From: Scytolyngbya sp. HA4215-MV1
GTDB lineage: Bacteria; Cyanobacteriota; Cyanobacteriia; Leptolyngbyales; Leptolyngbyaceae
Assembly: GCA_019359045.1 (NCBI GenBank)
Contig: JAHHIA010000025.1
Span: 1-34,390 of the forward strand
DNA length: 34,390 nt
Direction: 5' to 3'
The notes beneath the pieces are model-generated. The model made no database searches. It was not told where the DNA came from and saw only the letters and a program-made list of their open reading frames with translations. The stretch's first letter is position 1; each line of letters starts with the position of its first letter. Of this stretch, positions 9,256-34,390 are shown piece by piece. A program made the position numbers and the translations under genes.

Positions 9256-9705
9256 AGATCGGACAATATCACGAATGCGATCGCTCAAGAACTGAAAACC
9301 AAAGGTAAAAATATCCTGCCAGTTGTTGTTAGAGTGCTGGGTGAAGATAAGTATCAGGCAATTCTCAACACTCAGGTTCTGGATGCAGCAAAGCAAGCGA
9401 AACAGGACTTTGTTTGGTGCATCGTAGTAGACCAAGAAATGCAGGCACAGGTAGAGGTTGAGACAGGACAGGTTGTGAAGGTGGATATCACAACAGCCTC
9501 AGAAGAAGAGCTGGTTAGTGTTCTGGACTTTATTCGAGTTAGCAAAACAGGTTTTGGCAAGATTAGCCCTGAGAAGATTGCAGCAGCGATCGTTCAGTAT
9601 CGGCAGTCTAATCAAATAACCAACCTGAACTTTTTGACCAAGGCAAAGTGTGGAGTGGGTAAGGCTAAGCTGCCAGCGCTGGCAGAAAGCTTGGTAACGA
9701 ATTAA
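9253..9705 (+). pseudogene. 5'-truncated ParB-like gene, paralogue of 13310-14104
   Basis: Read from 9253 the frame gives a protein aligning along its length with the intact 264-aa ParB-like protein at 13310-14104. ITNAIAQELKTKGKNILPVVV matches the segment YIVAAAAASLLQTGGHNWIPL, DFVWCIVVD matches EVWCLVIK, and the end carries one copy of the repeat domain (ITTASEEEL ... TKAKCGVGKAKL). An in-frame TAG at 9247-9249 closes it upstream, so roughly the first 25 residues and the promoter are gone. A GTG at 9334 could start a 123-aa protein, but this would cut the ParB-like fold in half. It ends 4 bases into the convergent parB gene. Only one repeat domain is present, against two in the intact gene. 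Confidence 0.75.
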
Positions 9706-10487
9706 TCTTTTTTATTTTCTTCAAGAATATTCTCGATCAGCTTGATAATCGACGGCAGTTTTTTGGCTAAACTCTCCTCTTTCTGGTTACTCGGTTCAAC
9801 TTGTTGCCACTTCTGAAGGGCGCGATGGGCAGCTTTAAGCGATTGATGTCCTTTCTTTTTTTCAGTAATTGCGACATCTGTCGCATTTGAATCTTCAAGG
9901 TATCGCTCTACAGTTCTCCTGTGTTTACCGATCGCGGCTGCAAGTGTGGGAATCAGTAGTTTATCCCCTGGCGCGGGCTTGCCACGTTTCGACACGTAGC
10001 CAGCATCCTTCAGTCGTTCTGCGAGCGCTCGAACTTCGGATTCGGTATAGTCCTTTCTTTGAGCATTTTCAGCAGTTTCGATCGCCAGTGCCAGCCCCGG
10101 ATCGGTTTCTGAGTCGAATGGCATGGTTAGAACTGGCACCAATCCACCGGGAAACTGTAGATCGAATTCGTCTGGACTGTTCTGCTTGACCAGTGCGATC
10201 GCGGCTCTCCTGTGGCTACCAGCTAACAATCGGTTTTTAGAGTCGATCGCCAGTGGCTCGATTAAACCCAAAACAGCGATGGACTCTGCTAGGGCTGCAA
10301 CATGATCCTGGTTCAACTGCCTTGTGTCGTTGCCGAAGCGGTCTTTGATGGACTCTAGAGGCAGTTTTGAAGCACTGGCTTGCTGTTGGATTCTGGCGAG
10401 TTCTGGATCGATGCCCGCCTGTTTTGCCCATCGATCTGCTTCTGGTGGCAAAGATGGTTTGCCCGTTACCCTGGGTCGTTTCACCAT
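9702..10487 (-). CDS. parB: ParB-type partition protein (261 aa)
   Basis: A centromere-binding partner of ParA for plasmid segregation. Residues about 40-125 form the ParB/Srx N-terminal domain (LPLESIKDR, then HVAALAESIAVLGLIEPL and the arginine-rich GSHRRAA box). A helical DNA-binding region follows, with a likely helix-turn-helix near LAAAIGKHRRTVERYLED (about 185-200), and the Lys/Glu-rich C-terminus probably dimerises. The ATG at 10487 overlaps the parA stop by 7 bases and has GGGGA about 6 bases upstream, so translation is coupled. The arrangement parA-parB from one minus-strand transcript is standard. I could not pick out a parS centromere with confidence; the 11126-11295 gap or the repeats at 11517-11534 are candidates. 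Confidence 0.88.
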   Translation of the reverse strand: MVKRPRVTGKPSLPPEADRWAKQAGIDPELARIQQQASASKLPLESIKDRFGNDTRQLNQDHVAALAESIAVLGLIEPLAIDSKNRLLAGSHRRAAIALVKQNSPDEFDLQFPGGLVPVLTMPFDSETDPGLALAIETAENAQRKDYTESEVRALAERLKDAGYVSKRGKPAPGDKLLIPTLAAAIGKHRRTVERYLEDSNATDVAITEKKKGHQSLKAAHRALQKWQQVEPSNQKEESLAKKLPSIIKLIENILEENKKD

Positions 10488-11125
10488 ACTCTCATCCCCA
10501 ATAGCTTTAAGACATCTTTCGACATCGCCTTGATTTCTTTGGCTGCTGCGCCATTTGGAGTGGTCTCAAAGACGGTGTAGCCAGCGCTTGACTCAGCAAA
10601 TGCAATTCTTTGCCCGATCGCGGTTTTCAGGACTGGCAAATCGAATTCTTTGAGCAATTCAATCACATCATCAGCGATCGCAGTTCTGGCAACTTTGCGG
10701 TTAAGAACAAAAGCCGCCAGAAGGTCAGGTTTGAATTCCCTGGCTTCCTTGATAAGCTGCGCTGTCTCAGATGATGCCCAAACATCGAAGCTGCTTGGCT
10801 GTACTGGAATCAACACCAGGTCAGAAGCCAAGATTGCCGATCTTGCCAGGGCAGAGACACGCGGCGGTGAATCGATCAAAATGTGGTCGTACTCAGTCAT
10901 GCCCATGACCAGGGTGTGCAGGTCAGCCGATGTCATGGTCATGACCTCAAACGGCGGCTTATCTTCGGTTTGCCTGACTGCCAGCCAATTAGAAGCGCTG
11001 GCTTGCGGATCAGCGTCCACTACCAAAACTTTTCGCATTGCCAGTGCGATCGCACCTGCCAGATGAATGCACAAAGTTGATTTGCCCGATCCGCCCTTTT
11101 GACTCGCAAAAGTGATAACTGCCAC
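10481..11125 (-). CDS. parA: ParA-type partition ATPase (214 aa)
   Basis: A small Walker-type (type Ib-like) ParA without an N-terminal DNA-binding domain. The deviant Walker A is KGGSGKST at residues 10-17 with the signature lysine K10 and catalytic K15. Switch I is VVDADPQASAS and Walker B is HILIDSPPRV. Length and motifs are complete. It should form ATP-dependent dimers that bind the nucleoid non-specifically and move ParB-bound plasmid copies. It precedes parB with a 7-base overlap and follows the ribbon-helix-helix gene at 11296-11508 on the same strand after 170 bases, an arrangement in which the small protein often acts as centromere binder or autoregulator. Confidence 0.92.
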   Translation of the reverse strand: MAVITFASQKGGSGKSTLCIHLAGAIALAMRKVLVVDADPQASASNWLAVRQTEDKPPFEVMTMTSADLHTLVMGMTEYDHILIDSPPRVSALARSAILASDLVLIPVQPSSFDVWASSETAQLIKEAREFKPDLLAAFVLNRKVARTAIADDVIELLKEFDLPVLKTAIGQRIAFAESSAGYTVFETTPNGAAAKEIKAMSKDVLKLLGMRVW

Positions 11126-11295: not shown

Positions 11296-11508
11296 TCAAC
11301 CTGATAGCCTTGATAGCTTCCGTTCAAGCACTGCCACCCGATGAGACAGACTCTTCACCGTGGCAACCGTGCCAGATCCGATCGATTCTCGAATTAAGTT
11401 GTAGAGCCAGCTGGATCGGCTCTCTCCCAATTCCTCACAAATCCGATCGATTTGCTCCAATTCATCTGATTCCAATCGAGTGCCGATCGTTGGTTTTATT
11501 TTTTTCAT
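11296..11508 (-). CDS. Small ribbon-helix-helix protein upstream of parA (70 aa)
   Basis: MKKIKPTIGTRLESDELEQIDRICEELGESRSSWLYNLIRESI has the pattern of a CopG/Arc ribbon-helix-helix: a short basic beta strand followed by two helices with a turn at GESRSS. The last 25 residues (TVKSLSHRVAVLERKLSRL) form a short coiled coil. I chose the ATG at 11508. The ATG at 11544 adds a Cys/Val-rich segment that falls in the probable promoter and tandem repeats. It lies upstream of parAB on the same strand and may autoregulate, or bind the centromere like other plasmid RHH proteins; neither role is proven by sequence. Confidence 0.75.
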   Translation of the reverse strand: MKKIKPTIGTRLESDELEQIDRICEELGESRSSWLYNLIRESIGSGTVATVKSLSHRVAVLERKLSRLSG

Positions 11509-11814
11509 TTTGAGAACACACAAAACACACAAAACTAACTGCATCCGGTCAATTTGCCATTTTTCTCATTTGGGGCGTTTTGACGGGAAACATATAAAAC
11601 AATCTTATCAGCCAAACCCATGGAACGGATTTATAAGGGTTTCAGCCTTAGCGATCGATAAGTAAACCGAAATTAGCCCCTTCAAAAAACGAGTACAGGC
11701 AGTTGGACGCAAGAATAAGGCTTTGAGCCTCATGAAGTGTCTATAAAATAGCCATTAATTAGACAGTTCTGAGTTATAAAGGTCTAAGAGGATTAAAGGA
11801 TTAGACGACAACCG
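11509..11814. other. Divergent intergenic region before the recombinase gene
   Basis: About 306 bases between the RHH start and the recombinase start. Besides the tandem repeat it holds two related 19-mers 82 bases apart, ATAAGGGTTTCAGCCTTAG (11633-11651) and ATAAGGCTTTGAGCCTCAT (11715-11733). They agree at 15 of 19 positions, and each contains a small inverted AGGC/GCCT core. These could be recombination or regulatory sites for the adjacent recombinase. I see no credible gene. Confidence 0.35.
11517..11534. repeat. Tandem 9-bp repeat before the RHH gene
   Basis: CACACAAAA occurs twice in tandem (11517-11525 and 11526-11534), directly upstream of the RHH start at 11508. A -35-like TTGACC lies just upstream of it on the minus strand (near 11550). 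Short tandem repeats at this place are typical operators or centromeres for RHH proteins. Confidence 0.5.
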
Positions 11815-12381
11815 ATGGTCACCCGGCTAAAAAATACTGACTACAGATCTCGCGAGTATCTGACTCACGATGAAGTGAAGGAACTGATCGCAACTGCTGA
11901 GATTCGGGGTCGTTATGGCTTGAGAGACAAGGCTTTACTACTGTTGATGTTTAGGCATGGCTTAAGGGTTGGTGAGGCTTGCCTGCTGCGCTGGGATGCG
12001 ATCGACCTTAAGGCGGGCACGATTTTTGTCACCCGATTAAAGCGCGGCAATTCGGGCAATCATTTCTTGCAGTCGGATGAGGTAGAACTGCTGGCAGAAC
12101 TTAAGGGAGACAGACAGAGCGGGCATGTTTTCATTGGTGAAAGGGGAAACCCGTTGACGACTATGGCGATCGGCAAGATTGTCGATCGAACGGGCAATTT
12201 TGCCGAGTTTCCGTTTCGGGTGCATCCCCATATGCTTCGCCATGGCTGCGGTTATTGGTTGGCAAACCAGGGCTATGACACGCGATTGATTCAGGAATGG
12301 ATGGGTCACCGAAATATTGTGCATACGGCTCGATACACCGCCATTTCGCCCGCTCGTTTCAAGTGCTTCAAGTGGGGGTGA
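11815..12381 (+). CDS. Small tyrosine recombinase (188 aa)
   Basis: A complete catalytic domain of the XerC/FimB-type tyrosine recombinase family without the usual N-terminal core-binding domain. Catalytic residues are all present: R51 (GLRVGEA), K76 (beta hairpin, LKRGNSG), H139 and R142 (HMLRHG), H165 (WMGHRN) and nucleophile Y174 (ARYTAI). The compact size resembles FimB/FimE invertases. It probably resolves plasmid multimers or inverts or integrates a segment by site-specific strand exchange. Its ATG has only a distant AAGGA. It overlaps the convergent gene at 12368 by 14 bases. A fragment of a second, different recombinase lies 0.5 kb downstream. Confidence 0.88.
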   Translation: MVTRLKNTDYRSREYLTHDEVKELIATAEIRGRYGLRDKALLLLMFRHGLRVGEACLLRWDAIDLKAGTIFVTRLKRGNSGNHFLQSDEVELLAELKGDRQSGHVFIGERGNPLTTMAIGKIVDRTGNFAEFPFRVHPHMLRHGCGYWLANQGYDTRLIQEWMGHRNIVHTARYTAISPARFKCFKWG

Positions 12382-12643
12382 CATCCAGAGCGATCACTCG
12401 CTTAACCCAAAGTTCACCGATCGCTTTGCTATTTGGAACTGATTCGGGATCTTCGTAATACGCAGTCAGCAGGACTTGAAATAAGCAGTTCTCGCAAGTG
12501 TTTGGGTCTATCAGAAATATGCCTTCACTGACCTCGAACAGATGATCGACCATGAGATCACCCATCCACTGAGCAGGATCGTCAGACAGCTTTATGTCGT
12601 AAAAAAAATACATCGGATTTGCTTGGGTGAAGATGTGATACAT
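12368..12643 (-). CDS. Hypothetical 91-aa protein
   Basis: No family recognised. ATG at 12643 has a good AAGGA about 7 bases upstream; an alternative ATG at 12613 would remove the first ten residues. The product is acidic and rich in aromatic residues, with the paired Cys motif CENC near residue 50. It has no membrane segment or signal peptide. It overlaps the end of the upstream minus-strand frame (12592-12918) by about 50 bases and the recombinase gene tail-to-tail by 14 bases. Real coding is likely from its composition. Confidence 0.55.
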   Translation of the reverse strand: MYHIFTQANPMYFFYDIKLSDDPAQWMGDLMVDHLFEVSEGIFLIDPNTCENCLFQVLLTAYYEDPESVPNSKAIGELWVKRVIALDVTPT

Positions 12644-12918
12644 AGATCATCCTTCACCCACACAAATGGAAAAGCCCACGCCATACCAGCCTTTACACCC
12701 CTTGACTCGCAAGCGTTCCGAATATAAAGGCTTTGTTTTTTAACCTCTGTCACAACGCGGATCGGATGAGCAGCGATCGCACTGCCAACGCCAGAAACTG
12801 ATCCAGCCAATGTGTCAAAGATGCTTTGACCAATGCCTTGACCGATACCAGTCACCACATCACCAAAACGGCTTGCCTGTCTGGCAGTTCCTTGCAACTT
12901 GCCTTCCAGCTTGTCCAG
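12592..12918 (-). pseudogene. 5'-truncated hypothetical gene
   Basis: An ATG-free upstream extension and a 101-codon frame (from 12897) read as a plausible protein: LDKLEGKLQGTARQASRFGD followed by a Gly-rich stretch with GIGQGIGQSIF and then KAGMAWAFPFVWVKDD. Protein-like sequence continues upstream of the first ATG-type codon to about 12918, where it meets the remnant recombinase that starts on the opposite strand at 12924. I infer that the 5' end was lost at this junction. It could still be translated from a TTG near 12896. The last 17 codons may be out of true frame, as the ribosome-binding site of the next gene lies inside them. Confidence 0.4.
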
Positions 12919-12923
12919 ATTGA

Positions 12924-13235
12924 TTGAAGCCTTTCTTGGCAGCCTATCAGCAGCGAGCAGGTAAACCCCACTTGTTTTTCGGTAGGCATGGGCGCGGGCA
13001 TATTAACCCCCGGTCGGCTGATGCGATTTTGAGGGAGGCATGTCAGCAAGCAGGAATTGAAGGGGTTTCAACCCACAGTTTTAGACGAACCGCACTGACA
13101 ATGATGAGTACTGCGGGTGTACCGTTGCGAGTTATCCAGCAGGTGTCTGGGCACCGAAGTTTGCAGGCGTTGCAACGATATCTGGAAGTGTCAGAGCAGC
13201 AAGTTGCAAGTGCGGTAGCGGCGATCATCTTTTGA
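12924..13235 (+). pseudogene. C-terminal remnant of a tyrosine recombinase
   Basis: 103 codons matching the C-terminal half of an XerC/D-type recombinase. HSFRRT supplies the catalytic His and Arg, SGHR the second His, and RYLEV the nucleophilic Tyr. The first catalytic Arg and the Lys are missing, and an in-frame TGA at 12921 closes the frame directly upstream. About 80 residues have been lost. The family is distinct from the intact recombinase at 11815: GIEGVSTHSFRRTALTMMS against the intact protein's HPHMLRHGCGYW. It is not expected to be active alone. Confidence 0.8.
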
Positions 13236-13309
13236 GTCAATCGGAAACACTCAGATAGAGGAATCGCAGTACTTCAAAACAGCAACAGAAGTTAACTTGA
13301 TGCTTAACT

Positions 13310-14104
13310 TTACAGTGTGAATAGGGTTTTTAATGTCTTAACTTTTGCTGTGTTAATACCGCAATTCATTTTAGTGATTGGATTCAAACTCTTCCATTTA
13401 CTCCTATCAGCATTGACTATTAGTTCAGATAATTTCTCAGGATCTACAGTGCCAAACCCGTCAATCTTGTGGATGACTAAATAATTCAACCGCTCCAAGA
13501 TTTCTTGTTTTGAAGCCTGTTTGATACTCATGGTAGAAGGGGGAGAGGGTGGTGGTGGTGGTGGCGACAGATAAAAAGCTGACGCGAACTCATCCAATTT
13601 TTTGCCTTTGGTAATTCCGCACTTCAGCTTGGCAATAGGAGCAAAATCTTGCCAATTACTCCTGTCTTCAGCAGCAATCTTACTGGCTGAGATCGTGACA
13701 TCCACACTTTTCAATGAAGTTCCTGGCTGGCTGGCTAAATACTTCAAGACTGACGTGATAGTTGCTCTAGAGGCGGTTGTAAGGTTTACCTTTGGAGTGA
13801 CTTCCCCAGCCAGAATTCGAGCTTGTTCAATGTCTGTTGGGCTGGATTTAATAACAAGGCACCAGACCTCTTCTAGTCCTGCGTGAGCAGCAACCACATA
13901 GATGAAATGATTAGTAATGGCTCGGTATGCGTAATCTCCTGCCTCTTCCACAATTAATGGTATCCAGTTATGACCTCCCGTCTGCAAAAGAGAGGCCGCT
14001 GCTGCTGCAACAATGTACTCAGATGGAGCAGAATAGCTGTCACTGGGTTGAATAGCATCCAGGGGAAGGCACATTAGTTGCCCTACGTTATCAAAATCAC
14101 TCAT
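13310..14104 (-). CDS. ParB-like protein with a duplicated C-terminal domain (264 aa)
   Basis: Residues 12-90 resemble the ParB/Srx N-terminal fold: LPLDAIQPSD, then YIVAAAAASLLQTGGHNWIPLI, YAYRAITNHFIYVVAAHAG and VWCLVI. The classical arginine box GERRxRA is replaced by AITNHF, so CTP-dependent clamp function may be absent. Two copies of a ~70-residue domain follow, at about 105-177 and 193-263, separated by a poly-proline linker (180-189). Shared features include LTTAS/IKQAS, DRSxW and PIxKxxCGIxxxK. I do not recognise this domain. The start overlaps the stop of the upstream nuclease-ParA gene by 8 bases, so the two are translationally coupled. A third copy of the domain lies in the remnant at 9253-9705. 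Role inferred: DNA- or target-binding partner of the ParA ATPase. Confidence 0.75.
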   Translation of the reverse strand: MSDFDNVGQLMCLPLDAIQPSDSYSAPSEYIVAAAAASLLQTGGHNWIPLIVEEAGDYAYRAITNHFIYVVAAHAGLEEVWCLVIKSSPTDIEQARILAGEVTPKVNLTTASRATITSVLKYLASQPGTSLKSVDVTISASKIAAEDRSNWQDFAPIAKLKCGITKGKKLDEFASAFYLSPPPPPPSPPSTMSIKQASKQEILERLNYLVIHKIDGFGTVDPEKLSELIVNADRSKWKSLNPITKMNCGINTAKVKTLKTLFTL

Positions 14105-15461
14105 TTAAGAAGTACTCCCTGGCTAACGCAAGATAATATTCAAGCACTTTCTTGTGCTTATATACTGCTGGAACTCTGGCAAACGCTGAACTGGCAACAA
14201 CAGCGTAGTCTGGAAGATTAAAAACTGTTTTGTTCATATCTCCGGGCTTAATCTTAGGAAAGAAATATGGAACTAAATTAATTTTGTCTACTGTCTTAGC
14301 AGTCGCAATAACCTGCTCAATTTCTTTCTGTGCCATGTCAATCGAACGACCATCAGCAGGACTGCCGTTAAAGAAAATAGGCAAAGCAATGGGTCCGCCG
14401 TCTTGTCTGATTTTTTTGACATCATTCAAGATAAATTCTTGAATCACTCTGGCAGCGTTTTGCAGAGAAGATAGGTCGTTATGGCGGGTTGGAATCAAGA
14501 TTGCGTCTGCCGCATAAACCCCACTTTTACTGAAAAATAACCATTGAGTGGGACAGTCGATGAATATGTAGTCGTATTCGTTGGCAAATGGCTTTAGTAG
14601 ATCTCTCAGTCTAGCTGCACCCTTCTGAATTCGAGATTGAGTCTGATGAGTAAAAGCTTCCATACCATGATCAGCAGGAATCACATCAAAAACGCGATAA
14701 ACCTTGTTGGATTTGCCAGACTTTTGAGTCAGTTTGAATGGAATGATCGCGGATCGAATATCGAGAGAATTGTCTGTTAAACACTCCGACAATTTAACAC
14801 TACTGGGTTCTAACCCCAATGATTTTGTTAAGTCTCGCTGAGAGTCGAAATCAACCAGCAGGACTTTCTTTTTCTGAGTCACTAATGTTGCCGCTAGATT
14901 AATCGTAGTGGTGGTTTTCCCTACCCCACCTTTGTTGTTGTAAACACAAACCGTAAGGCAGCGAGGGGTGTCCTCAATTAGATTTTTGATGTGATTGACA
15001 ACCGAAGTAATGTTTTCTTCTGTAAGCTCAATGCATTCAGTAGCGGGTGTCACGACCTTATCGTGACATCGAAAAAGCTGAATGTGACTTGAATTAGTGA
15101 TGATTCCCCAATGTGCAGATTTGCATTTGGGAGATAGCAGATACCTTTTTAGCTGCTCTCGCGTTGATACATACTGATGAGAGTTTTCCGTTAAATTAAT
15201 GGCACCGCCCGCATTTGTAAATCGTCCTTTGACTTCTATCAGCAAATCAGGCTCATTTCTGGTGAAAAGAAAAACATCGTCAGATGTGTTCTTGCGAGCT
15301 GCAAAATCAACACAGTCGTTCCCTGCTCCAGTCGAAAATTGCGGTAACCTCTCTTTTTCACTGAAGCCTAACGCTTCAAGCAAGTGCGGTACAAATTGCG
15401 TACAAACTTCCGCCTCTTTCGCTTGCGGGGGAATATTAGCTAAAACCTTGCTCCAATCCAT
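14097..15461 (-). CDS. HsdR-type nuclease domain fused to ParA ATPase (454 aa)
   Basis: Residues 1-135 match the N-terminal nuclease domain of type I restriction R subunits (HSDR_N type). Visible features are an early Glu (E18), P71-D72 followed by LLIE76-V-K78 (the PD-(D/E)XK core), QLKRYL at 103-108 (the QxxxY-like helix) and WGIITNSSHIQLF at 118-130. Residues 168-450 are a ParA/MinD ATPase: deviant Walker A KGGVGKTT at 177-184, switch LLVDFDSQRDLT, and Walker B YIFIDCPTQW. Both active sites look intact. Ordinary ParA proteins carry at most a helix-turn-helix at this place, so the fusion is unusual. It follows a ribbon-helix-helix gene and precedes the ParB-like partner with an 8-base overlap. 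Possible jobs are partition with a built-in nuclease, anti-plasmid or anti-phage defence, or post-segregational killing; the sequence does not decide. Confidence 0.85.
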   Translation of the reverse strand: MDWSKVLANIPPQAKEAEVCTQFVPHLLEALGFSEKERLPQFSTGAGNDCVDFAARKNTSDDVFLFTRNEPDLLIEVKGRFTNAGGAINLTENSHQYVSTREQLKRYLLSPKCKSAHWGIITNSSHIQLFRCHDKVVTPATECIELTEENITSVVNHIKNLIEDTPRCLTVCVYNNKGGVGKTTTTINLAATLVTQKKKVLLVDFDSQRDLTKSLGLEPSSVKLSECLTDNSLDIRSAIIPFKLTQKSGKSNKVYRVFDVIPADHGMEAFTHQTQSRIQKGAARLRDLLKPFANEYDYIFIDCPTQWLFFSKSGVYAADAILIPTRHNDLSSLQNAARVIQEFILNDVKKIRQDGGPIALPIFFNGSPADGRSIDMAQKEIEQVIATAKTVDKINLVPYFFPKIKPGDMNKTVFNLPDYAVVASSAFARVPAVYKHKKVLEYYLALAREYFLNE

Positions 15462-15600
15462 CAGGATCTATCCTTGTACCTTGAAATACCGCACATATCA
15501 CAATGTTTCCTTCGTGAGGGCACCACGATCTTAAAATGCCCTATTTATGGGGGGTATTACCGATACTTCATCAATAAAAGATAAAAAGTTGTTTAATTCT

Positions 15601-15789
15601 TTATTGGTGCATTAATTCCCTTTCAACAGCCTCAGCTATCACCTGTCGTAACCACTTAGCTCGATCCGCTTTTAATCGTACATACGTGTCTAAATTTTTC
15701 GGAAGGAATACGGAGATGGGTTTATCTGCCAGTGCCTCATCCCCTGCTGGCTTGAAGCGGGTTTGATAGTCTGCGCGCTGCTTATTCAT
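15601..15789 (-). CDS. Small RHH-like protein (62 aa)
   Basis: The segment KPISVFLPKNLDTYVRLKADRAKWLRQVIAEAVEREL fits a CopG/ribbon-helix-helix protein: a strand (ISVFLP), a first helix, a turn at RAK and a second helix. The basic N-terminus (MNKQRADYQTRFK) could contact DNA. It lies 139 bases upstream of the nuclease-ParA gene on the same strand and probably regulates that operon or binds its centromere-like site. No strong ribosome-binding site is evident. Confidence 0.65.
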   Translation of the reverse strand: MNKQRADYQTRFKPAGDEALADKPISVFLPKNLDTYVRLKADRAKWLRQVIAEAVERELMHQ

Positions 15790-16214
15790 TGTTAATTTGC
15801 TACAAGTCTAATGCCAGTTTAAATAAACCAGCCTTAAATTCAAGAGTCTAAGTTTCCGAATGCTTGATTAGTATGCTGAAGCAAAAGATACAGCCAGTTT
15901 CGAGCATTGGAAATTGAGGATGAGTTGTACCGGATGAAGAAAGAGATGGGGTTCATTTAGCTTCAAAACCAGAGCGAGAATCAGTTGATACCGACATCAC
16001 CCAACGTCCCATCTGCCCTTTGAAAACACCCAGTCCAGCGTTGACGCACATATCCATCAATCGCCACTGGTAAGTGATTACCTCAATTAATTCTGGAGAT
16101 GGCAACTCATTCATTTTTAGAAGGCAGCATAAAGAATTTGTGATCTTTTGGGTAAAAAAACCAGTTTTTCTCTAAAACTTGCGAAAACTGAGACAACCCC
16201 TACGTATACGAAGT
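15790..16214. other. Mostly gene-free stretch with a coding remnant
   Basis: Apart from the possible 53-aa gene at 15953-16114 I see no gene. On the plus strand about 15884-15960 reads KRYSQFRALEIEDELYRMKKE before a stop. This looks like the coiled-coil tail of a lost gene, without a start or ribosome-binding site. The segment 15790-15840 is AT-rich and should hold the promoter of the minus-strand RHH gene. Confidence 0.35.
15953..16114 (-). CDS. Possible 53-aa small protein
   Basis: ATG at 16114 to TGA at 15955-15953 encodes MNELPSPELIEVITYQWRL followed by DMCVNAGLGVFKGQMGRWVM and a short polar tail. The composition is protein-like, with an amphipathic helix near residues 8-24, and no membrane segment. 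No ribosome-binding site of normal strength is seen. The family is not recognised. It lies between the RHH gene and the divergent secreted-protein gene. Confidence 0.4.
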   Translation of the reverse strand: MNELPSPELIEVITYQWRLMDMCVNAGLGVFKGQMGRWVMSVSTDSRSGFEAK

Positions 16215-16730
16215 ATGTTTCTCAAGCGTCTATCTGTTGCATTATCACCTTTTTTTCTCGCTCTTACCCCAGGAATTGCTTTAAGTGAAGCCCTTCCAGA
16301 TGTTCCTTCTTCTGAAATAAACAACTTGGCTTGCTACGTACAAACTGAAGAGGGTCAAACGGTTGATTTGACAAGGTTGTGCGGTGGCTTTTACTCAAAT
16401 AGCATTGCAAAGGGGAGCGGAATAGATAACCCTACAGGAGGTTATGCCAGAGCTTCAAGTGTAAATCCCTTGTCTGGTGCTGCCAGTTCTCGTTCCAGGC
16501 ATAAACCTCTGAGGTCTAAATCAAGCTCTTCTACTTTTCAAAACAGTAGGCGCAACAGGTGGACTTACCTCCCTGTTGATAGTGGATTGGTCATTGATGG
16601 TTATGCTGACTTGGGTACATCTGGAGGATCTAGCGGAGGAGGATCTGACGGACCAGTTCAGGTGCACGGATATACACGCAAAAACGGAACCACCGTTCGC
16701 CCACATACACGCAGCGCCCCTAGCAGGTAA
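16215..16730 (+). CDS. Secreted protein with GYTRKNGT-type tail (171 aa)
   Basis: A typical signal peptide opens the protein when the ATG at 16215 is used: basic MFLKR, hydrophobic LSVALSPFFLALTPGIA, then a cleavage region at LSEA. The mature part has two cysteines (ACYVQTEEG and RLCGG) that could form a disulfide, a Ser/Arg-rich linker, a Gly-rich stretch (SGGSSGGGSDG) and the ending VHGYTRKNGTTVRPHTRS. Similar GYTRKDGT-x-V-x-PH-x-RS tails occur on many cyanobacterial exported proteins; their function is unknown to me. The TTG at 16179 would place 12 extra residues before the signal peptide and is less likely. A cell-envelope or periplasmic location is inferred. Confidence 0.7.
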   Translation: MFLKRLSVALSPFFLALTPGIALSEALPDVPSSEINNLACYVQTEEGQTVDLTRLCGGFYSNSIAKGSGIDNPTGGYARASSVNPLSGAASSRSRHKPLRSKSSSSTFQNSRRNRWTYLPVDSGLVIDGYADLGTSGGSSGGGSDGPVQVHGYTRKNGTTVRPHTRSAPSR

Positions 16731-16801
16731 ACTTGCCGTTGTAAAAAATGCTGGGAAAGCACTGATTGACGCGAGTTTTAGAACAAACTACAAGGATTGC
16801 T

Positions 16802-17311
16802 ATGCAACAGGTCAATACCGGAACTGCTTACATTTTTTGGTGCCTTTGGCTTTTGGGGCTAGGCGGCGTTCATCGGTTGTATACCGGGCAAATTGGCAGC
16901 GGACTGATATATCTGCTTACGTGGGGATTGTTTGGTGTCGGTCAAGTGATTGATCTAGCTTTAATTCCGGGGATGGTTGATCGGCGTAATTTATACCTGC
17001 GAGGTGGTCATAGTGGATCACCGATCGTCAATCAGTCTGTCACCTTGAACATTGGTGATATTCCACAATTAAAAGAACTTCAGCAATTAAAAGCAACGCA
17101 GCCCAAAGACCAGTCAAACAACTCCATGCAAAAATTGCTGAAAGCGGCTAAGGAGCATGGTGGACAGTTGTCAGTTGCTCAAGCTGCTATGTATGTAGAT
17201 CTGCCACCAGAGCAAGTAAAAGAGTTGCTACTTGAGGCGGTCAAGGCTGGATATGCAGACATCAACAACGATTCAAAAACTGGCGCAGTGCGATACTACT
17301 TTGATTTGTAA
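16802..17311 (+). CDS. TM2-domain membrane protein (169 aa)
   Basis: The ATG at 16802 has AAGGA 7 bases upstream. Residues 6-62 are a TM2 domain: two transmembrane helices ([21 protein letters not shown] and the [21 protein letters not shown] segment) with the conserved G-x-H-R-x-Y-x-G turn. A polar linker follows, then about 70 residues resembling a winged helix ([29 protein letters not shown]...) ending in YYFDL. This gives a membrane-anchored protein with a cytoplasmic helical domain. It lies 71 bases after the secreted-protein gene and may be co-transcribed with it. The function is unknown; TM2 plus a similar C-terminal domain is common in cyanobacteria. Confidence 0.8.
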
Positions 17312-31648: not shown

Positions 31649-34390
31649 AGCCTCAAAATTCAGCCATTCCCCTCACCACTCCCTTCACCCCCCAGAATCC
31701 AGATATGCCGGAAGCAGTTGCCTCAAACCCCAAAATCTCAGCCCTTCTCACCCACCACAGAGATCACCTCCTGTCAGAAGGCTTTACTCCTGAGCACATC
31801 GAACTGTTTGAAACGATTGGAGTAAGGTCTATAACCGAAGCAGAAGCAGTCAAGCTTGGCTTTAAGGCTAAAGCTTCAGACGGCTCGATCAGGTCTTCGA
31901 GCGGCTTGCTTTTCCCGTTTGATGGTAGCTTTGCTCAAATCCGGTGCGATCGCCCGATCGAGCGCGAGAACGGTAAAGCAGCCAAATATTTGACCCCGAT
32001 CGGTGAGGCAGCAAAGGTATGGAATCCCCCAAAAAGCTGGTTTGCTGTTCAATTATCGCGAGTAAAAGTTATCACCGAGGGATGGAAGGATGCGGCGGCG
32101 GGTTCATTATTTGGCGGCATTTCGACAAGTGCCCTTGCTGGCATTTCTCATGCCAGCAAGGCGATCTCCAGTGGCAAAAAGCAAACTTTTTTGGGCGATT
32201 ATGATACCTGGACGAATCCTAATCTGATCCGATCGATCTCTACTGCTGCAAGTCATTCGGGTGGCAAAATCCAGATTGTCCCTAAAGTCGAGGGTGAGCC
32301 TAAAGCGGGACTCTGCGAATGGTTCAAAGCCTTGAAGCAGGCAGGCAAAGACACAAAATCCGAGTACGAAAAGCTGATCGGTTCAGCTATGTCGATCGAG
32401 GCTTTTGTCTTTGCTTGTGTAGACCACTGGCGCGAGATCGACCAAGAAAAATTGAGTGAATGGTTGGGTGCGTTGTTTTTTGTTGCAGCAAGGCACTTTT
32501 CGGATTTGAACAAAGAGAATTTGATCGAAGTCGTCAGCCAGACACTTAAGGGCTTCGGAAAGAAAGCTTTAAGGGCTGCGCTAGCCAAAAAAGCGAAGGG
32601 CGTTGAAGCCCTTAAGAGAAAGGAACGGCAAAAGAATGCACCAAAACGACAACAGGGCATCATTCCGATCAAGATCGAATACGACGACGAGGGGGAACCC
32701 TTTGTCACAATGCCTGAAACGTCAACGGTTGCAAATGTTCTTGCTGAGCATTACAGGTCGAAGCTGGCTTTCTCAACTGAGGATCAAGAATGGTATCGGT
32801 ACGAATCGGAATTGCCAGGGGTTTGGAGTCGAGAGCCTGATGCATTTATCGAAGCAATGATAGCGACCGAGATCGATGCATCGGGTGGGGCAGATCATTA
32901 CAGCTTCGGTTACATTGCCTCATCCAGAAGCTTGCTTAAAGCCAAGCTAGCGGTCAGGCATTGGGATGAAGCAACCGACCTTTTGCCGCTTCAGAATGGC
33001 GTTTTGAACCTTGCGACAAACAAATTAGAACCCCACTCACCAGGTTATCGATTTACCTGGCAACTCCCCTACTGCCATGATCCGGCTGCAACCTGCCAGC
33101 CGATCGTTGATTGGCTGCATTTTACGCAAGACGGTGATGGGCAAAGGGTTCAGCTTTTGCGGGCATACCTGAAAGCGATCGTAACTGGCAGATCCGACCT
33201 ACAACGATTTCTGGAAGCGATCGGACCGGGCGGCAGTGGCAAGTCAACCTTTGGGAATCTAGCTGTAGCTCTGGTAGGAATGCGAAATGTGTTGCCAACC
33301 TCGCTTGAACAGTTGCAAAACAACCGCTTTGAAACTGCCAACCTAAAGCGGAAGCGGTTGCTTTACATCACCGATAGCGATCGCTACGGTGGCTCGGTGA
33401 GTGTCCTTAAAACCATCACCGGGGGCGATATCCTACGGAATGAAGAGAAGAACAAGCAGCAAGGGGATGGATTCATAGCTCGGTTAATGGTGTTGATGGT
33501 CGCCAACGAGCCGATTCAGTCCACCGACTATACCAGCGGATTGGAGCGCAGACGGATCACGGTTCCATTCCTGAAGCCCGTGCCAGCACATCAGCAAAAA
33601 GACTTGCTATCCATCACCAGCGCCGGGGCATCGGGTGAATTTGTTCCCCATTTGCCAGGGCTGCTTAATTGGGTTCTCGCCTTACCAGACAACGAAATGA
33701 AGCAATTGATCAAGCAAACAGTTGTCAACGTGCCAGCACTCGCCAAATGGAAAGCAGAAAGCTTAGTCAATGGCAACCCGATCGCGGAATGGCTTGATGC
33801 TCGATGCATTTTAGATCCCAATGCCATAACCCGCATTGGCGATGCGAAGAAACAAAGATTCTCAGAATCCGAAGGTGGGTCAGGCTCAAGCTGGGACGTT
33901 TACATGAACGCAAGCACCTGGCTCTATGCAAACTACTGCGATTACTGCGATCGCGTTGGAGCAAACAAGCTCAAGATCCAGCGGTTCAGTCCATTGCTGA
34001 TCGACTTACTCAACAATCAGTTAAAAGTTCCAGCGGTCAAGACGCGGACTAGGGATGGTGCTTTCATTTCTGGAATCGCGATCAGATCCGAATCGCACCA
34101 CGGATACCCCACCCCTGTGACGAACTTTGTGATGGACTGTGACGAACCTGTGACGGCTGAAACCCGCACTGGTGATAAGCGTGAGGGTTGTGACGATTAT
34201 TTTCAAACTCAATCTGATGTTGAAAATAATTTTTCTTGCAGCCCCCAGATCGAAGGCGATGAGAAAAAAAATAATTTTCAGCAGCCACCAAGTTCAAAAC
34301 AACCGTCACAACCCTCACAATCATCACAGTCAAGGGTTTCAGCCGTCACACCATCCATCACAGATTCGTCACAGTCCATCACACTGCCCA
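31645..34390 (+). CDS. Toprim/SF3 plasmid primase-helicase, main part (continues at 1-489)
   Basis: ATG at 31645 has GGAGG 6 bases upstream. Residues about 60-240 look like a DUF3854/Toprim primase domain: catalytic Glu E145 in ITEGWKDA and the DxD pair D185/D187 in FLGDYD. Residues about 400-700 form an SF3 helicase of the P4/D5 type: Walker A GPGGSGKST at 527-535 (K533), Walker B LLYITDSD (D577, D579) and motif C VLMVANEP with N621. Together these synthesise primers and unwind the origin, as in the alpha protein of phage P4 and related plasmid replicases. The C-terminal third is variable and Ser/Gln-rich; its DNA carries the inverted TGTGA/TCACA arrays. Full length is 1035 aa across the circular join. 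It is probably the main replication protein. Confidence 0.92.
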   Translation, partial: MKPQNSAIPLTTPFTPQNPDMPEAVASNPKISALLTHHRDHLLSEGFTPEHIELFETIGVRSITEAEAVKLGFKAKASDGSIRSSSGLLFPFDGSFAQIRCDRPIERENGKAAKYLTPIGEAAKVWNPPKSWFAVQLSRVKVITEGWKDAAAGSLFGGISTSALAGISHASKAISSGKKQTFLGDYDTWTNPNLIRSISTAASHSGGKIQIVPKVEGEPKAGLCEWFKALKQAGKDTKSEYEKLIGSAMSIEAFVFACVDHWREIDQEKLSEWLGALFFVAARHFSDLNKENLIEVVSQTLKGFGKKALRAALAKKAKGVEALKRKERQKNAPKRQQGIIPIKIEYDDEGEPFVTMPETSTVANVLAEHYRSKLAFSTEDQEWYRYESELPGVWSREPDAFIEAMIATEIDASGGADHYSFGYIASSRSLLKAKLAVRHWDEATDLLPLQNGVLNLATNKLEPHSPGYRFTWQLPYCHDPAATCQPIVDWLHFTQDGDGQRVQLLRAYLKAIVTGRSDLQRFLEAIGPGGSGKSTFGNLAVALVGMRNVLPTSLEQLQNNRFETANLKRKRLLYITDSDRYGGSVSVLKTITGGDILRNEEKNKQQGDGFIARLMVLMVANEPIQSTDYTSGLERRRITVPFLKPVPAHQQKDLLSITSAGASGEFVPHLPGLLNWVLALPDNEMKQLIKQTVVNVPALAKWKAESLVNGNPIAEWLDARCILDPNAITRIGDAKKQRFSESEGGSGSSWDVYMNASTWLYANYCDYCDRVGANKLKIQRFSPLLIDLLNNQLKVPAVKTRTRDGAFISGIAIRSESHHGYPTPVTNFVMDCDEPVTAETRTGDKREGCDDYFQTQSDVENNFSCSPQIEGDEKKNNFQQPPSSKQPSQPSQSSQSRVSAVTPSITDSSQSITLP
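34116..34383. repeat. Inverted TGTGA / TCACA arrays around an AT-rich core
   Basis: Left arm: TGTGA at 34116, 34128, 34138, 34149 and 34189, with variants GGTGA at 34171 and CGTGA at 34180. Right arm: TCACA at 34306, 34315, 34324, 34346, 34358, 34369 and 34379. Spacings are mostly 9-12 bp or twice that. Between the arms lie TGAAAATAATTTTTC (34221-34235) and GAAAAAAAATAATTTTCA (34263-34280), an imperfect AT-rich inverted repeat. The pentamers occur in two codon phases in both arms, so they are not explained by amino-acid repetition alone. The layout resembles iterons flanking a DNA-unwinding element inside a replication gene, as in the lambda O gene. Confidence 0.75.
34264..34390. repeat. Terminal direct repeat, right copy (circular join)
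   Basis: Identical to 1-127; see that entry. Only one copy exists in the circular molecule. Coordinates after 34263 therefore duplicate the start of the window. Confidence 0.93.

Follow-up and report, generated by a model that had tools for sequence, protein, structure and literature searches.

We examined a 34,390-nucleotide (nt) stretch of DNA from the cyanobacterium Scytolyngbya sp. HA4215-MV1 (contig JAHHIA010000025.1; referred to below, at its full length, as the window), which carries a gene for a predicted restriction-type nuclease domain fused to a ParA ATPase, followed by a gene for a ParB-like protein. The termini of the contig, positions 1-127 and 34264-34390, are identical, and because this exact 127-bp overlap joins the ends of a whole contig, the window is very likely a closed circular plasmid of about 34.3 kb. 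An earlier note, made from the letters of the DNA, had described a frame of 454 amino acids (aa) joining an HsdR-type nuclease to ParA and had placed it in an operon of three genes; the frame reads as described there, on the minus strand. The genes and features of this locus are as follows.

14097..15461, minus strand: fusion gene, 454 aa, predicted HsdR/type IIG-like PD-(D/E)XK nuclease domain joined to a ParA ATPase (Pfam, conservation, AlphaFold2 model).
14967..15461, minus strand: nuclease domain, aa 1-165, with the predicted catalytic set E16/D52/E76/K78 (conservation, HSDR_N_2, structure 3s1s).
14100..14966, minus strand: ParA ATPase part, aa 166-454 (AAA_31 at 2e-32, invariant residues, structure 5u1j at Z 16.7).
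13310..14104, minus strand: predicted ParB-fold partner of 264 aa, whose gene overlaps that of the fusion (alignment and model).
15601..15789, minus strand: open reading frame (ORF) of 62 aa upstream of the fusion, from the ORF list, called ribbon-helix-helix (RHH)-like in the earlier note.

ParA proteins associate with DNA as ATP-bound dimers, and ParA switches move DNA, organelles and protein clusters. The ATPase part of the fusion matches the Pfam family AAA_31 over aa 170-337 (E=2e-32), and the two motifs reported in the note, KGGVGKTT and YIFIDCP, were found in the same frame, the former as the P-loop at aa 177-184 and the latter at aa 298-304. In an alignment of 101 non-identical fusions, whose assembly is described below, the deviant Walker A residues K177, G178, G179, K182 and T183 are invariant (101/101), as are D206 and D302, and the ATPase part of the AlphaFold2 model superposes on pNOB8 ParA (5u1j) with a Z of 16.7 at 3.5 Å over 230 residues. 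As far as sequence can tell, the ParA switch residues are intact in these proteins.

The nuclease domain is more divergent from its Pfam relatives, with the window protein matching HSDR_N at E=0.012 as a whole and at 8.6e-4 for aa 1-165, both below the Pfam cut-off (the window protein scores 16.0 bits against a curated threshold of 25.1). When 39 N-terminal domains including that of the window were searched at E<=0.1, HSDR_N_2 was matched by 29 (best 6.7e-9), HSDR_N by 21 and MmeI_N by nine. Within the domain, conservation among the 101 fusions is highest at six positions, E16 (101/101), D52 (100/101, within VDFAAR of the window protein), E76 (101/101), K78 (100/101), and residues G119 and N123 (100/101 each). 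We take the first four to be the catalytic residues of a PD-(D/E)XK nuclease; their retention is about as strict as that of the Walker lysines K177 and K182 (101/101 each). The counts include one variant, L047, in which the set is broken. The catalytic set is kept across two superclades while identity to the N-terminal domain of the window protein falls as low as 19%, and this combination therefore points to selection on catalysis. Because both the fusion and its predicted active site are conserved in 101 proteins, a chance origin is excluded.

The assignment of catalytic residues in the earlier note stands in part. E76 and K78 are confirmed by the alignment, whereas E18 is kept in 51, P71 in 50 and D72 in only seven of the 101 fusions, so that these three are not conserved and the set is completed instead by E16 and D52. 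The loss of E18 in about half of the homologues and of D72 in most, a kind of loss that the note had named as refuting its reading, thus reflects mis-assignment, the true set being retained. Within the motif QLKRYL, which the note had also listed, Q103 is Q in 53/101 and otherwise mostly R or K, and Y107 is Y in 88/101.

Structure prediction, which the note had named as a test of the fold, agrees with a nuclease assignment. The AlphaFold2 model of the fusion was built from a three-row alignment and has a mean pLDDT (predicted local distance difference test score) of 56 over the whole protein; in aa 1-160, ten-residue means lie between 65 and 89, except for one loop at 38. With VIA-align 2, aa 1-166 of the model superpose on the nuclease part of BpuSI, a type IIG enzyme (3s1s, residues 7-170), with a Z of 12.8 at 3.2 Å over 143 residues. 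BpuSI was the sole restriction enzyme among the 50 matches listed, the others being ParA/MinD-type folds, and Foldseek with the whole model returned only ParA/MinD/NifH-type folds among its first 50 matches. Profile searches of the N-terminal domain against solved structures gave nothing usable, the top rows being chance-like and MmeI appearing at E=0.65. On the strength of the model, the N-terminal domain is predicted to have a restriction-endonuclease fold.

A ParB-like gene lies directly 3' of the fusion in 93 of 100 loci other than that of the window, 91 having been identified at first and two more (L081 and L321) by a stop-to-stop search. The 100-locus set leaves out L009-L014, three of which repeat G042 loci and the others of which come from a different collection. 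In the 91 loci measured, the partner starts on the same strand between -59 and +53 nt relative to the fusion stop; 51 of the 91 partners overlap the fusion, and 73 overlap it or start within 3 nt. The operon proposed in the note therefore holds as a fusion-partner pair, but not in its third gene, since homologues of the RHH gene were found in none of the 100 other fusion loci. The 62-aa ORF at 15601-15789, which is without a Pfam match at E<=1, is local to the window plasmid and lies outside the conserved module.

Among 35 partners searched against Pfam at E<=0.1, 27 match ParB_N (best 9e-10), and Rho_N (12), SAP (nine), HeH (six) and HHH_6 (four) are found in their tails, partly in the same proteins, so that the partner often appears to end in helix-hairpin-helix (HhH)/SAP-type modules; none of the 25 Pfam families listed for these partners, out of 37, is of the helix-turn-helix (HTH) type. 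A profile of the 35 sequences matches Noc (7nfu) with E=7.6e-9. The window partner itself has no ParB_N match and was assigned through alignment and model: aa 9-102 are ParB/Srx-like, and two copies of a 'W..L.PI.K..CGI' element follow at the end. In its model (two-row alignment, mean pLDDT 59), aa 9-102 superpose on ParB-CDP (7bnk) with a Z of 9.8 at 3.1 Å over 88 residues. The GxRR-type arginines in the phosphate motif of ParB bind cytidine triphosphate (CTP). None of 91 partners has an arginine at the corresponding positions 67 or 68 (one partner is gapped there; one shorter than 120 aa was left out of this count and that of the window was added). The ordinary ParB-like protein of the same plasmid (9702-10487) does read GSHRRAA at this motif. 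The description of the partner as an unusual ParB-like protein is thus borne out, as a predicted ParB fold without the CTP arginines.

In order to determine how far the fusion extends beyond this plasmid, we searched 386 cyanobacterial genomes at E<=1e-40 with a profile (A5) built from an alignment of 32 fusions that does not contain L047. The survey scored the best four candidates per genome, so that its counts are lower bounds. It returned 131 rows, of which 30 were dropped for not spanning model positions 20-380, leaving 101 rows with both domains in 76 genomes. Survey rows G119 and G355, whose frames are broken by an internal stop, were not counted as intact, which gives at least 99 intact fusions (98 and that of the window) in at least 75 of the 386 genomes, from 23 families. 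The fusion is therefore widespread in cyanobacteria, and the concern raised with the first sequence, that it might be confined to that one, does not apply. The set of 101 non-identical proteins used for all conservation counts consists of the intact survey set together with L131, from a metagenome-assembled genome titled uncultured cyanobacterium, and L165, from a contig of a viral collection. FastTree phylogeny, in a single run on which the division rests, splits at the midpoint into clades A and B, with 45 and 56 members and supports of 0.999 and 1.0.

Outside cyanobacteria, as many as 11 candidates were scored in each genome, with phyla named after the titles of the centre loci. In Pseudomonadota 137 of 150 genomes have a match at E<=1e-30, none of which, among the matches listed, starts before model position 124. 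Matches at E<=1e-48 were obtained in 6/149 genomes of Bacillota, 0/148 of Bacteroidota and 3/149 of Actinomycetota, those listed starting at position 133 or later, which is within or just ahead of the ParA part. No fusion scoring within these thresholds was thus present among the matches listed in 596 genomes of four non-cyanobacterial phyla. A Pseudomonadota protein of 453 aa (L335) among the matches has no match to the nuclease domain. Whole-protein scans of genome and viral contigs returned mostly ordinary ParA proteins among the matches listed, and a profile scan of 187 control loci (80 genome-contig and 80 viral-contig whole-protein matches and 27 others) found only two, L131 and L165, that have a nuclease domain and a both-domain match. 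Of 3266 plasmid records matching the fusion in tblastn, seven cover 80% of the protein; all seven are cyanobacterial, and two of them represent a single Leptolyngbya plasmid from two strains. More distant plasmid matches in Persicobacter, Calothrix, Anabaena, Azospirillum and Tolypothrix are genes of 253-392 codons annotated as ParA-type, and four of them adjoin a gene annotated as ParB. An origin from phages is unsupported, the evidence amounting to one IMG/VR contig, with no phage record covering 80% of the query; viral scans with clade B and plasmid-subclade domains gave no matches.

The two halves of the module resemble different known systems. The nuclease domain has the common fold, the family resemblance and the E / D / E-x-K order of the nuclease domains of HsdR (HSDR_N/HSDR_N_2) and type IIG enzymes (MmeI, BpuSI), but where those enzymes continue with a helicase or a methyltransferase, the fusion continues with a ParA ATPase, which stands in the place of the helicase motor of the type I R subunit. 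With ParABS systems (Soj/Spo0J, pNOB8, plasmid ParA/ParB) the module shares the ParA fold, the invariant deviant Walker A motif and an adjoining ParB-fold gene. It differs from them in the N-terminal nuclease of its ParA and in a partner that lacks the CTP arginines (0/91) and has HhH/SAP-type modules where HTH was not detected. PADLOC model PDC-M28B, from the candidate defense system PDC-M28, matches fusion protein P0001 with E=1.6e-8, its best stretch being aa 99-206, including the P-loop; the match covers model positions 59-166 of 438 and not the full length. Identity with PDC-M28 was rejected, as L245, a member with a full score, appears by eye to be an ATPase of the KGGVGR type that lacks this nuclease domain.

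As described in the passages covered of PMC4619093 and PMC12704722, a ParB/Srx fold and a nuclease are likewise combined in GmrSD type IV restriction systems and other ParB-fold/nuclease proteins, but there an HNH nuclease goes with the ParB fold itself, whereas here a predicted PD-(D/E)XK nuclease is joined to ParA. The former paper treats GmrSD, and in the part covered HSDR_N and partition appear apart from each other. The latter surveys ParB-fold proteins, describes the binding of CTP by ParB through sequence boxes and, in the text covered, names only a DUF3850 fusion as consistently adjoining parA; the terms 'hsdr' and 'sap domain' have no occurrences in this paper. The passages covered of PMC2743648 and PMC2701414 hold nothing on a nuclease-ParA fusion. 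The term 'HsdR N-terminal domain' occurs in PMC8713573, as does a word that starts with 'ParA'. The note's author knew of no system with this make-up, and none is described in the literature covered, which was judged by titles and the starts of abstracts among the matches listed and took in few subscription papers and no bioRxiv preprints.

Taken together, sequences and models identify what is predicted to be a two-gene cyanobacterial module, in which a gene for a PD-(D/E)XK nuclease-ParA fusion stands directly ahead of a gene for a ParB-fold adaptor. Nucleases of this fold commonly need two domains together for a double-strand cut. By analogy with ordinary ParA proteins, ATP binding would cause the ParA part to dimerise on DNA; the dimer would juxtapose two nuclease domains, and the state of the switch could in this way gate double-strand cleavage. 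The adaptor may bind DNA through its HhH/SAP-type tail, and its ParB domain may recruit the ATPase or trigger hydrolysis, so setting where the nuclease loads and when it is released. The role of such a system would be DNA surveillance, removing competing or wrongly structured replicons as in restriction or incompatibility, and not the partition of its own replicon. For this statement as a whole, an ATP-switch-controlled nuclease with a ParB-fold adaptor that acts in surveillance or incompatibility, our confidence stops somewhat short of an even chance. We nevertheless rank it ahead of a role in genome maintenance, and the latter ahead of variant partition.

We prefer surveillance or incompatibility because other segregation genes are present on four plasmids, no methyltransferase recurs among the neighbor groups listed, different versions occur side by side, and copies decay locally. 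The window plasmid carries a canonical ParA/ParB pair besides the fusion module, and in Nostoc sp. UHCC 0870 the module is accompanied by ParM and two ParA/ParB pairs on unnamed4, by ParM and one ParA on unnamed9, and by ParA/ParB on unnamed10; on these four plasmids it does not look like the sole segregation system. A DNA methyltransferase was seen on the Leptolyngbya plasmid pLBA, about 40 kb from the module (region 1-50000 and the surroundings of the fusion were covered); on the Pseudanabaena plasmid pPg_01 the analysis covered the fusion and its surroundings. In genome G042 four different fusions are spread over three plasmid-size contigs and one contig of 6.4 Mb. Decay is evident in the in-frame stops of the two survey rows mentioned above, in a fusion gene that is in two pieces (L334), and in the genome of the window itself, where a clade-B-like copy has degenerated (G000:C14).

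The second par-type locus of the window plasmid spans 9702-11544 and is made up of the following genes.

9702-10487: ParB-like gene, 261 aa, with a weak ParB_N match, reading GSHRRAA.
10481-11125: ordinary ParA, 214 aa.
11296-11544: second RHH-like ORF.

Beside the fusion module lie a gene of the phage integrase family at 11815-12381 (Pfam) and, by eye, a putative truncated second tyrosine recombinase at 12924-13235. A TM2-domain protein is encoded at 16766-17311, between the module and an ORF of 1355 aa that looks rich in coiled coils, and a large ORF running from 31645 to the contig end resembles, by eye, a plasmid primase/helicase.

The only neighbor commonly encoded within 5 kb of the 100 fusions is the partner group (91 loci), the next groups being present in at most 18 loci. 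Another ParA occurs near the fusion in 18 loci, 17 of them in clade B; beside the clade B fusions (in loci such as L079, L080, L289 and L303) it is an ordinary protein of about 290-330 aa, mostly on the opposite strand.

Several observations weigh against a role in surveillance. The neighbors that recur near chromosomal copies resemble ordinary cellular genes, presumably including, to go by sequence, a glycosyltransferase and a methionyl-tRNA synthetase, and no methyltransferase or defense-type group is found among the neighbor groups listed (at least 4 of the 100 loci, within 5 kb). PADLOC gave no family specific to the fusion module. Genera with more than one copy form a single clade in 2/5 cases in clade A and 7/10 in clade B, a coherence that looks like residence and not like rapid transfer. 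No other partition gene appears in the annotation table, itself incomplete, of the Pseudanabaena plasmid ABRG53g. Seven of the 100 fusions have no detectable partner (L049, L054, L056, L082 and L285-L287). Finally, in L047 (G155:C5), a natural variant, D52 is replaced by G and K78 by T, yet ParA and partner are retained, suggesting that the ATPase pair can persist without the nuclease. Five of the partnerless fusions (L049, L056 and L285-L287) belong to one subclade.

The strongest rival is a role in DNA maintenance, which we consider unlikely though a serious contender: the ParA/ParB-like pair would gather DNA, and the nuclease would act on joints, dimers or broken ends when DNA is segregated or repaired. 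Many cyanobacteria are polyploid, and HhH modules, such as those predicted in the partners, are common in repair proteins. Forty-two of the 100 fusions lie on contigs longer than 1 Mb (20 of clade A and 22 of clade B), and we therefore argue that the module is more than a plasmid-stability device; these locations favor maintenance, as do the ordinary neighbors and the coherence of several genera in the tree. Rates of change speak on both sides. In one genus, six of whose genomes have both clades (G093, G095, G233, G235, G251 and G310; 15 non-independent pairs), the mean ratio of nonsynonymous to synonymous substitution rates (dN/dS) in clade B is 0.10 for the nuclease, 0.24 for ParA and 0.40 for the partner, so that the clade B nuclease is strongly conserved there, in keeping with maintenance. 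The order is reversed in clade A, with 0.56 for the nuclease, 0.65 for ParA and 0.11 for the partner, and the unusually fast change of these fusions relative to their own partner (0.56-0.65) counts against maintenance; these values are suggestive, but not decisive, of diversification or relaxation. In ten mixed pairs, the dN/dS of the nuclease part ranges from 0.07 to 0.96. Also against maintenance are the presence of intact copies in only 75 of 386 genomes (a lower bound), the decayed copies, and plasmids that carry variants of their own.

A variant partition system, in which the two proteins partition the replicon that encodes them, with the nuclease merely assisting, for instance by nicking a centromere, is less probable still and in our view improbable. 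The adjacency of ParA and ParB-fold genes in the style of a par operon and the case of ABRG53g, whose incomplete annotation table lists no further par gene, would fit this explanation. It is opposed by the partners, of which 0/91 have the CTP-binding arginines and, in the 35 analyzed, none an HTH family among those listed, as well as by the canonical par genes or ParM on the four plasmids described above. There are also no convincing iterated centromere-like repeats around the window operon (12300-16800), although parS sites can be short and occur singly.

Post-segregational killing of the toxin-antitoxin kind, with the nuclease poisoning cells that have lost the replicon and the partner as antidote, was among the possibilities raised in the note and fits two adjoining genes of which 51/91 pairs overlap, but it is very improbable, given that both genes are large and that an unopposed toxin should not tolerate the seven fusions without a detectable partner. 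Least probable of all, and close to negligible, is a dead nuclease fold serving DNA binding only, which L047, lacking D52 and K78 with the rest kept, would exemplify, but which E16, D52, E76 and K78 contradict as four of the six most conserved N-terminal positions in 101 proteins.

Returning to surveillance and incompatibility, we suggest, with slightly more reserve than for the module's role as stated above, that this is a new DNA-cutting machine, whose dimerisation, loading and release would be governed by a ParA-type ATP switch together with a ParB-like adaptor that works independently of CTP, and which may be ancient in cyanobacteria and police both chromosome and plasmid DNA. A conserved ParA family with an intact restriction-type nuclease would couple the ParA switch to the cutting of DNA. 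The module is directly testable, comprising two genes, four predicted catalytic residues and one natural variant that is missing two of them. It bears on how cyanobacteria control the plasmids and genome copies that a cell contains, and it may act as a barrier to the introduction of DNA into these bacteria.

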